From contig NZ_CP011856.1 in the NCBI RefSeq assembly GCF_001029265.1, positions 682,001 to 746,000 of the forward strand: DNA of 64,000 nucleotides, given 5' to 3'. The DNA is from Spiroplasma eriocheiris. Its GTDB lineage: Bacteria > Bacillota_I > Bacilli_A > Mycoplasmatales > Mycoplasmataceae. This document shows, piece after piece, positions 46,632 to 53,609 of this stretch. A program made the position numbers and the translations under genes. The notes beneath the pieces were generated by a model that was not told the origin of the DNA, made no database searches, and saw only the letters and a list, made by a program, of their open reading frames with translations. The number at the start of each line of letters is the position of its first letter. Positions within the stretch are counted from its first letter, which is position 1.

Positions 46632-46688
46632 TTATCTATCAATTTATTTAATTTCAAATAAATTTAAAATTAGTTGGGAGGATATTAT

Positions 46689-46838
46689 ATGGCCGTGTGT
46701 TGTCCAGCTAAAAATCATGAATGTAGTACTTGCCGTACTTGTAGTAAACCAAAAGTTGGTTGTCGTTCATGTTTGGTATGTATATCTTGCATTAATTGTG
46801 TTAATAAAGAATGTGCATGCTGTAAAGATAGTCGATAA
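46689..46838 (+). CDS. Small Cys-rich protein (49 aa, 13 Cys)
   Basis: Starts at ATG with TTGGGAGGA 7 bases upstream and stops next to a strong terminator, with its own extended -10. Cysteines at 4, 5, 12, 15, 18, 25, 28, 31, 34, 37, 42, 44 and 45 form two runs with period 3 (CxxCxxC and CxxCxxCxxCxxC) and a final CxCC. More than one residue in four is Cys. This pattern suggests a metallothionein-like metal store or a metal sensor or chaperone. It ends in KDSR, recalling the HSRK end of the Cys-rich protein at 6614..6745. I know no family. Confidence 0.75.
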   Translation: MAVCCPAKNHECSTCRTCSKPKVGCRSCLVCISCINCVNKECACCKDSR

Positions 46839-50697: not shown

Positions 50698-52236
50698 TTA
50701 TTCACTTTTTAAACGAATAGTTACTTTAAATGAACCAACTTTAATTGGGTCATAGTCATTTCTTGTAATATCAACCACAGTGTAATCTCTTTGTAATCTT
50801 TGGTTTAGGTTTCCAAATTTAATTCCACGACTTGCGCCTTTTGTTGAAGGAATAAAGATTGGAATTTTACGATAATCCAATGCGGGTACTGTCATGTAAA
50901 TTACAACTTGTTGGTATGGTGAATCAACATCTTTTAACGCTTCGTTTAAGTATTTAACAAATTCGTTACTTACTAATTGGCTACCAAATTGTTTGTCTTC
51001 AACAAACTCATGTGATTGGTTATGAGTAATGTAGAATGAAATTCTTGCATCACAATTAACTAATAAGTATTTTTGGGGAACAGTTGCTCCGTTATATGTG
51101 TATGATGATTTATCTTGGGCTTTTTCCGCAATTGCAGCAGCAATTTCGTTAGCCACGGTTTCCACTTTATATAATTTTTCAGTGTTTAAATCATATTTGG
51201 CTGATTTATTTCATAATAATTCATCATCATTAACACGAACTTGTTCTAAGAATAATAATTTACGTAATCATTTTTTAGGAGCATTTTTTCATTCATCTTC
51301 TCCTAAAATAACTTTACTTGGTCCTTCGTTGTCTTTAACTTTATTCTTCATAACTTGAATAATGTCTAATGCAACTGGTGATTTTTCTTGTTTATCAACT
51401 AACATTAATGAGGGTCCAAATCCTGATAATACTTTATGAGTATTTGGTTTGAATAATTTAATTCAATCATCATGTTTAATTTCAAATAATTCGTTAATTG
51501 AATCTAAATCATCTGCTGATGATTGTGATAAGTCAATAATGTAACGTGAACTTAATAAGTTAAATAATCTTCTTAATAAGTATTTTAAAGTATTAACTGT
51601 TTCATACATTTTAAATTTATGTAATGGATCATTATCTCATGGTGATAATGCATTGTTATAAATAATTTTTAATGCTAAGTAATTAATACTTGATTTTTTC
51701 GCAACTTGAGCAATTGCTCCTGCTTCAGTATCAATAACATCAATTGTGTGACCATATTTGTCAACCATTTCTTTAAATTGTTTTGAGTTATAGATCAACA
51801 TATCAGCTGTTCCAGTAACCCCTTCAGTTAATCCTAATTTAAAGTCTTTAATAACTTTGGCAAATTCACCATCAAATTGGAATGATTCTGGTTCATTAAC
51901 AATTTGCCCATATTTAATGTCTTTAAATACTGTTAAATCAGCATCACGATAAATAAATTTTGTTGAAATTGTTGTATCAGCAGTATCATGTTTATCATTT
52001 GTTGATAACGCTAAGTCAATATTGATAATTGTTTGTAATCCTGGGTATTTTTCTAATAAGTAAGTTATTGCCATTGCTGCATTAGCTTTTCCATAACCTA
52101 CAGTTGCAATAATAAAAGTTTTCCCATGGTATTTTAGATGTTGGATAACACAGTTTTTTCACCAATACTTTTTAATAGTCTTAATGCTGTGTTTGTCTTT
52201 CATCGTGAAATACGCAGTTGAAATAACTCCAATCAT
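50698..52236 (-). CDS. fib: Fibril protein, Spiroplasma cytoskeleton
   Basis: Fib polymerises into the internal ribbon that gives spiroplasmas their helical shape and takes part in motility. The 512 residues start MIGVISTAYFTMKDKHSIK and are recognisably close to S. citri Fib throughout. The N-terminal half has the fold of MTA/SAH nucleosidases (VDTEAGAIAQVA-type motif reads VIDTEAGAIAQVA). Two of the three acidic catalytic residues of true nucleosidases appear missing: the early Glu is absent from GVISTAYF, and YNNA stands where the Asp is expected, so enzymatic activity is doubtful (inference). GAGGTGAAG precedes the ATG. Confidence 0.97.
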
Positions 52237-52527: not shown

Positions 52528-52764
52528 TTAAGCTAATAAAAAATTGTTAATCATTTGTAACTCGTGATTCACCTTCGTTTGCTGTTGTAATTGTGCAGTT
52601 TGGTGTTCTTGCAATAACTTTTGCTGTTTTTGTTGAATAACAGTACTACTAATTTGGACCCCTACTTGGGCTAATGTCCCAACACAAGACATTATTAAAG
52701 GAATTAACATTCAAAAAAAGCCTCCTTTAATATTTTGAGTTGCTGGAATTGATAATTTTTGCAT
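52528..52764 (-). CDS. Small peptide with double-glycine leader, copy 2 (78 aa)
   Basis: GAAAGGAAG precedes ATG 52764. The first 15 residues, MQKLSIPATQNIKGG, look like a double-glycine leader cut after GG. The rest starts with a hydrophobic stretch (FFWMLIPLIMSCVGTLAQVGVQI) and ends in a Gln-rich amphipathic helix (QQKQQKLLQEHQTAQLQQQ). It starts 15 bases below the similar gene at 52780..53043, so the two form an operon. The layout recalls two-peptide class II bacteriocins or other exported peptides, normally processed by ABC transporters with a C39 peptidase, none of which is in the window. Confidence 0.6.
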
Positions 52765-52779
52765 TCGCTAACTTCCTTT

Positions 52780-53043
52780 CTAGACAAATAGTAAATCGTG
52801 GTGGCTATTATTGAGCACACTATTTTTATCTGATCAGGTTAAAGCATTACCATTGGGCGTTTTGTAACTACCTTCGCAACGCGTATCGTTTTTAATTGCC
52901 AAATAAGCACCAACTCCGCTAGAAACTAAATTACCAACAGAATTGGTACAAGCATTCACAAGAGCAGCAATCCCAGTCAGCAGAGCACCGCTAAGAGCAC
53001 CCCCTTTAAGAATAATTGTTTGTTGATTAGATAATTTTTGCAT
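52780..53043 (-). CDS. Small peptide with double-glycine leader, copy 1 (87 aa)
   Basis: Start ATG 53043 with AAGGGTGA upstream; a GTG three codons earlier is less likely. The leader MQKLSNQQTIILKGG matches copy 2 in MQKLS and KGG. After GG comes a Gly/Ala-rich hydrophobic core (ALSGALLTGIAALVNAC) with GxxxG-like spacing (NSVGNLVSSGVGAYLA), as in pore-forming class IIb bacteriocins, then a polar tail with a second Cys. The nearby greA has its own terminator, so the pair is a separate unit. Bacteriocin function is inference. Confidence 0.6.
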
Positions 53044-53102
53044 CGTAATCACCCTTCCTTTCTACTTCTTATTTATCAGATTGCCAGGGGTTTTCCTTGT
53101 TA

Positions 53103-53132: not shown

Positions 53133-53609
53133 TTATTCGACATTATTAATACTTATTTTGTAAGGAGTCTGAATTCCTTTAATTTCAACAGTATCACCAA
53201 CTTTTTTACCAATAATTGCTTTTGCAATTGGTGATTCATTAGAAACCGTATTTTCAAAAGGGTTGGCTTCCACCGCCCCGACAATTTTAATTTCAAAGTC
53301 TTTATTAATAGCTAAATTAGTAAAACTAACTTTGCTTCCTAATTTTATAACTCCGGTTTTTGATTTAACTTCTTTAATTTCTTTTGCTTTTGTTAAAAAA
53401 GCTTCAATTTCTTTAATCCGTCCTTCTACTTCTGCTTGGCGGTTCCGAGCAGCATCGTAATCAGCATTTTCCGAAAGATCTCCCTGAGCACGGGCTTCTT
53501 TTAATTCTTCAATTACCGCGGGGCGGACTACATTAATTAAATTATTTAACTCCGCTTTTAATTCTTCCATCCCTTCTTTAGTTAATAAAATTTCTTCATT
53601 AATACTCAT
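53133..53609 (-). CDS. greA: Transcription elongation factor GreA
   Basis: GreA makes stalled RNA polymerase cleave its backtracked transcript. The coiled-coil tip has the acidic pair in EARAQGDLSENADYDAARNRQ, followed by the C-terminal FKBP-like domain (SNESPIAKAIIGKKVGDTVEI). Start at ATG 53609 is chosen for the AAAGGAGTG site 11 bases upstream; an in-frame start 12 codons earlier lacks one. 158 residues is normal. Confidence 0.95.
   Translation of the reverse strand: MSINEEILLTKEGMEELKAELNNLINVVRPAVIEELKEARAQGDLSENADYDAARNRQAEVEGRIKEIEAFLTKAKEIKEVKSKTGVIKLGSKVSFTNLAINKDFEIKIVGAVEANPFENTVSNESPIAKAIIGKKVGDTVEIKGIQTPYKISINNVE

Follow-up and report, generated by a model that had tools for sequence, protein, structure and literature searches.

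Two predicted double-glycine leader peptides beside fib in Spiroplasma eriocheiris and a candidate cargo family for the C39 exporter of Mycoplasmatales

What do the two small genes between greA and the motility gene fib in Spiroplasma eriocheiris encode, and would their products leave the cell? We examined this in a stretch of 64,000 nucleotides from this species (assembly GCF_001029265.1, contig NZ_CP011856.1, positions 682,001 to 746,000), here called the window, and in genomes of related bacteria; labels such as G002, L005 and f8 are ours for genomes, loci and families. The original prediction, made from the letters of the window, described two adjacent open reading frames (ORFs) 15 bases apart, each with a ribosome site, an MQKLS start and KGG at residues 13–15, and read them as class II bacteriocins or exported signal peptides. 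Under genetic code 4, all of these features are present on the minus strand, where greA, peptide A, peptide B and fib follow in that order on the same strand. We consider it very probable that A and B are substrates of a peptidase-containing ATP-binding cassette (ABC) transporter (PCAT) and would be exported and cleaved after residue 15, because of the leader, the exporter, the inheritance of the two together and the decay of the double-glycine (GG) site or the peptide gene when the exporter is lost. The features of the locus are as follows.

52780–53043, minus strand: peptide A gene, stop included, with a precursor of 87 residues; member of an order-wide family
52999–53043, minus strand: leader of A, 15 residues, MQKLSNQQTIILKGG; the 15-residue fit is exact in 51 of 51 homologues
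52999–53004, minus strand: Gly14-Gly15 codons of A, with the predicted C39 cleavage site after Gly15; GG or AG in 49 of 51 homologues
53052–53059, minus strand: Shine-Dalgarno (SD)-like sequence of A, AGGAAGGG
52765–52779, minus strand: 15-base spacer between A and B, holding the SD of B, AAAGGAAG, at 52772–52779
52528–52764, minus strand: peptide B gene, with a precursor of 78 residues; second GG peptide, in a genus-specific slot
52720–52764, minus strand: leader of B, 15 residues, MQKLSIPATQNIKGG
53133–53609, minus strand: greA, upstream neighbour; the site is conserved in the genus
50698–52236, minus strand: fib (fibril protein), downstream neighbour; this linkage is genus-specific and is not functional evidence

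After residue 15, the sequence of A continues with ALSGALLTGIAAL and that of B with FFWMLIPLIM. TGA encodes Trp at conserved Trp positions in both genes (W70 of A and W18 of B). Mature A carries zero net charge, with residues 16–34 forming a hydrophobic stretch, and mature B opens with a strongly hydrophobic one. A leader definition of L/I/M at residue 4, I/L/V/M at 12 and G or A followed by G at 14–15, in an ORF of 50–130 residues with an SD, was matched by exactly two ORFs in the window as compared with none in 200 first-order Markov shuffles, and the leaders are therefore not due to chance. Further GG peptides in the genome (G000; a single contig of 1,365,714 bases) were sought by pattern and profile, and the pattern ATGCARAARYTN...AARGGNGG occurred at these two places only in the 1.37 Mb. 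Pfam and NCBIfam gave no above-chance match for A or B of the window, and predicted promoters and terminators were no more frequent at the locus than in shuffles. Structure prediction of A from the single sequence had a mean predicted local distance difference test score of 46; the helix at 22–40 and three strands that it hinted at are too poor for use.

The genome has a single Peptidase_C39 match, which belongs to a PCAT of 686 residues (C1:879518–881578) with C39, ABC membrane and ABC ATPase domains. This protein aligns over its full length, with residues 3–663 aligned to PCAT1 (PDB 4ry2) and 10–676 to ComA (8hf4). The catalytic Gln, Cys and His are the same as those of PCAT1 in all 18 mollicute C39 domains compared. 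In transporters of this kind, the leader binds the C39 domain, the peptide is cut after the leader, and export is driven by ATP; by analogy with this mechanism we infer the cleavage and export of A and B.

The A gene occurs at the same greA–fib site in 8 of the 14 genomes of the genus, with a ratio of nonsynonymous to synonymous substitution rates (dN/dS) of 0.02–0.41. Because it is conserved at this site with a dN/dS of about 0.02–0.4, we take A to be a real gene, on which, as judged by codon comparison, purifying selection acts. A profile of seven A sequences had matches to short ORFs from other genera, with E values reaching 1e-10, and a profile of 32 sequences detected A in 51 of the 60 genomes of the bacterial family (E < 1e-12); in families f7 (to 6.6e-8) and f8, its matches bear the leader but are weaker. 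The leader is exactly 15 residues long in all 51 homologues, with GG at residues 14–15 in 40, AG in nine, GV in one and EV in one. Position –12 is L/I/M, –8 is mostly E/Q/K and –4 mostly I/V/L; the mature peptides have 46–136 residues. One family member scored above the cut-off of TIGR01847, a curated bacteriocin leader model (16.4 versus 15.7 bits). Outside the genus, the A gene is mostly found upstream of rplU-prp, and in some f7 genomes also upstream of rplU, a recurring place which suggests an ancestral site upstream of rplU and mostly vertical descent. An ATT, ATC or ATA start is needed by eight of the 51 homologues, each behind a good SD; these unusual start codons may serve to keep expression low or regulated, and they are one reason why A homologues were missed by annotation. 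The start position of the G056 peptide is uncertain.

L098, L100, L104, L112, L113, L115, L196, L198: A homologues with an apparent ATT, ATC or ATA start behind a strong SD

Presence of the peptide and of the exporter were closely associated. C39 was found in 50 of the 60 genomes of the family, and A was present in 49 of these 50 versus 2 of the 10 without C39 (Fisher 1.5e-7, uncorrected for relatedness). GG or AG was kept in 46 of 46 peptides with an open C39 domain, which in most of these genomes was checked as the domain rather than as the whole exporter, versus three of five where the PCAT is lost or broken (Fisher 0.008). On a tree of fib and greA (one genome lacking greA), at least four separate losses in the genus are needed if only loss is allowed. 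In G002, which we take to be S. citri, the PCAT was not found, A carries GV, and B is interrupted by a stop codon in its leader. Compared with its sister G004, A of G002 has two amino acid differences, one of which is GG to GV, and zero synonymous differences. S. citri BLH-13 carries both lesions too, which makes sequencing error unlikely. In G005, the genome closest to that of the window, the PCAT is absent, A is lost and B is open with its GG changed to RG. In G025, the PCAT has decayed in place between its usual neighbours and A carries EV. GV and EV were seen only in these two settings of PCAT loss or decay; G003 and G006 hold fragments only. The original prediction had named conserved leaders and a C39-type exporter as what to look for and their absence as what would speak against it. 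What we found was the opposite: the leader fits exactly in 51 genomes, and a full PCAT is present and inherited together with A, so that the GG leaders and predicted export are supported.

B appears to be a more variable partner. In the other clade of the genus, a second GG peptide occupies the place of B, with MKLLTIKQQKEVIGG up to the predicted cleavage site followed by AAWIIG. A profile of the B cores scored against shuffled decoys did not separate from them, and homology of the cores between the two clades is therefore not claimed. The dN/dS of B is 0.12–0.4 in close pairs and near 1 between more distant pairs, a faster change than that of A, and B is absent from G001 and G013, where A occurs alone. 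We treat B as a putative lineage-specific second cargo whose core differs between clades. As a separate observation, a C-terminal motif is shared by A in the genus, where it reads (I/V/L)LFV, and by B in the other clade, where it is mostly ILYV (L031, L033, L034, L035, L036, L039 and window 52780–53043). A regular-expression scan of about 60 loci turned up little besides the family peptide, and in the family outside the genus no further GG peptide lay next to it. Two f8 genomes, G216 and G222, have two GG peptides side by side (L172, 1317–1643, plus strand, and L167), one member being basic (RGGARRGSKRAPSKAS...), which suggests lineage-specific partner peptides there too.

We propose that the precursors of A and B would be made with a 15-residue leader, that the C39 domain of the single PCAT would recognize residues 4, 8 and 12 of this leader together with the GG and cut after residue 15, and that the PCAT would export mature peptides of 72 (A) and 63 (B) residues with ATP hydrolysis. 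A would be the conserved product of a peptide family that is represented in most of the bacterial family's genomes and also elsewhere in Mycoplasmatales, and B a genus-specific second cargo with a core that changes between clades. We are least sure of the role after export. Most likely it is that of a conserved membrane-active or surface peptide rather than of a bacteriocin with immunity, because the locus has no immunity gene and the peptide is near-universal, mostly single-copy and set among housekeeping neighbours; in A, a conserved polar tail comes after a hydrophobic segment rich in Gly and Ala. More broadly, we tentatively suggest, with slightly less than even confidence, a core secreted-peptide system of Mycoplasmatales, in which one conserved peptide per genome, with lineage-specific partners, acts on the cell's own or host membranes and its export is what the C39 transporter, kept even in JCVI-syn3A, is really for.

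Several observations weigh against export by the PCAT. The third catalytic residue of the PCAT in the window's genome is Asn, not Asp, the sole exception among the 18 C39 domains; this would leave the PCAT with a papain-like Cys-His-Asn set. The PCAT gene is unlinked to the genes of A and B, and no GG peptide lies close to it. A GG peptide is retained in G017, which lacks a PCAT, and G023 (M. florum) has an intact PCAT with no detected peptide; a diverged peptide near rplU was sought there in three stretches, none of which holds rplU. The PCAT of G004 is frameshifted and that of G008 (L050) is broken by copies of one insertion sequence, with the peptides intact in each genome, which requires recent loss or sequencing error; in G008, where both peptides are intact, the disruption is read as a recent loss. 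Some of these points would suit coincidental leaders, with A and B being small membrane proteins kept in the cell and the PCAT doing something else, such as the lipoyl-peptide import proposed for JCVI-syn3A 0401 (PMC6609329). These points are the separate locations of the peptide and exporter genes and the exceptions to co-occurrence in G017 and G023; in addition, the processing of the peptides is a prediction from sequence comparison. However, coincidence would not explain why the leader fits to the residue across 51 genomes, or why the GG site or the gene was lost repeatedly along with the PCAT, and we regard it as very unlikely. That the ORFs are spurious, as their shortness and the overlapping ORFs on the opposite strand might suggest, is refuted for A by purifying selection in frame and conservation across genera; B has a dN/dS of 0.12 between G000 and G005, and we give this explanation almost no weight.

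Accepting export by the PCAT, the peptides could still have roles other than that of a conserved membrane-active or surface peptide. A and B could be a two-peptide class IIb bacteriocin that jointly forms pores in competing mollicutes. The GG leaders, the PCAT, the two adjacent peptides, the Gly/Ala-rich hydrophobic N-terminal core of A and the diversified B core between clades are consistent with this, and some relatives weakly match the cerein 7B and lactococcin G-beta models. By contrast, no genome read has an immunity gene at the locus, the greA–A–B–fib region of the window has no other conserved ORF, A occurs without B in G001, G013 and every locus of the family that was read from other genera, the distribution is near-universal, mostly single-copy and largely vertical, and the window's own peptide matches no bacteriocin model. 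A mobile bacteriocin cluster was also considered and rejected: a plasmid search returned one S. citri replicon, which carries the whole greA–A–fib region and is thus the same locus. Viral contigs, phage records and one PCAT scan of genome contigs gave no peptide relatives, or only a remote PCAT. The bacteriocin part of the original prediction was not supported, with no adjacent immunity gene or dedicated exporter, mostly single copies inherited with housekeeping neighbours and few relatives that resemble bacteriocin models, and we judge a bacteriocin unlikely. Less likely still are cell-to-cell signals sensed by the producer, although one conserved product per genome would suit a species signal, and signals of the ComC/BlpC type leave the cell by GG-leader export. 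Mature peptides of 46–136 residues are long for such signals, and no sensor gene is adjacent to the peptide genes, a genome-wide sensor search not having been made. In addition, chemotaxis without a conventional two-component system is reported for this species (PMC5289999).

The surroundings of the exporter recur. Directly 3' of the PCAT gene and overlapping it lies a gene for a protein of 139 residues, which appears to have one membrane segment and matched no Pfam or NCBIfam family, and then ybeY; the gene names at this locus, ybeY among them, are those that we assume from reading the translations. The order PCAT, protein of about 125 residues, ybeY is found in several other genera and families, the small protein being absent in some genera, and the setting can be described as a PCAT–(~125-residue membrane protein)–ybeY–cdd side operon. 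The recurrence of the small protein beside the PCAT in several families of the order makes it a possible exporter accessory protein. Examples, each with one apparent membrane segment and no known domain, are as follows.

L005, 5128–5547, minus strand: ~125-residue protein beside PCAT
L045, 5286–5672, minus strand: ~125-residue protein beside PCAT
L184, 1611–1988, minus strand: ~125-residue protein beside PCAT
L192, 4437–4823, plus strand: ~125-residue protein beside PCAT

Near the PCAT of the window's genome there is also an ORF of 553 residues (L005, 10060–11721, minus strand) that looks glycosyltransferase-like by eye (DWD motif) and is absent from the other PCAT loci read. Elsewhere in the window (46674–46838, plus strand), a very Cys-rich ORF of 54 residues, MGGYYMAVCCPAKNHECSTC..., has no Pfam match and is possibly a metal-binding or small secreted protein.

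The original prediction knew of no description of such a system in a spiroplasma. Among open-licence papers we likewise found none on such peptides in mollicutes, but the NCBI pipeline already labels the S. citri copy a 'bacteriocin leader domain-containing protein' (WP_071937221.1). A GG peptide with a PCAT is known as a kind; the order-wide, unlinked and immunity-free form appears to be new. It would have gone unnoticed so far because of the shortness of the peptides, the ATT, ATC or ATA starts of some and their separation from the exporter, and short, unlinked peptides with non-AUG starts can escape annotation in this way. A named, conserved candidate cargo makes the function of the C39 exporter directly testable. 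It carries weight since the exporter is widespread in the order, with a C39 peptidase domain in 282 of the 320 genomes searched, and is kept in JCVI-syn3A. It also points to a secreted peptide common to wall-less bacteria, among which a membrane-active one would face no peptidoglycan barrier.

As a comparison, the GG-leader precursors of class II bacteriocins (TIGR01847; TIGR03949, lactobin A/cerein 7B; NF038034, lactococcin G-beta) are likewise short, with a 15-residue leader ending in GG, hydrophobic residues at –12 and –4, a Gly/Ala-rich hydrophobic core and a PCAT in the genome. Unlike these, A and B lack adjacent immunity or regulator genes and have their exporter elsewhere, and A is one conserved peptide per genome across the order with a long conserved polar tail; the window's peptide scores below every curated model. 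The exporter resembles PCAT1 and ComA in its C39, membrane and ATPase domains, its full-length alignment and its Gln, Cys and His, whereas its gene is not beside the cargo and the third catalytic position has Asn for Asp. It is of the same exporter class, and from the same bacterial order, as JCVI-syn3A MMSYN1_0401 and the C39 proteins of other mycoplasmas, for which no GG peptide was known in the published model (PMC6609329). Because none had been found, that model tentatively gave the JCVI-syn3A transporter a role in lipoyl import (PMC6609329). The A family offers, by analogy, a candidate cargo for this exporter, although the peptides named here come from other genomes of the order than that of syn3A. 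Lastly, the NCBIfam family NF045747 ('MPN313 family protein') weakly matches several A-family members over leader and core (best E 1.5e-4), some aligned from residue 1; where scores were shown, they are far under the 100-bit cut-off, so that a relation is only suggested, and MPN313 may be the counterpart of these peptides in M. pneumoniae.
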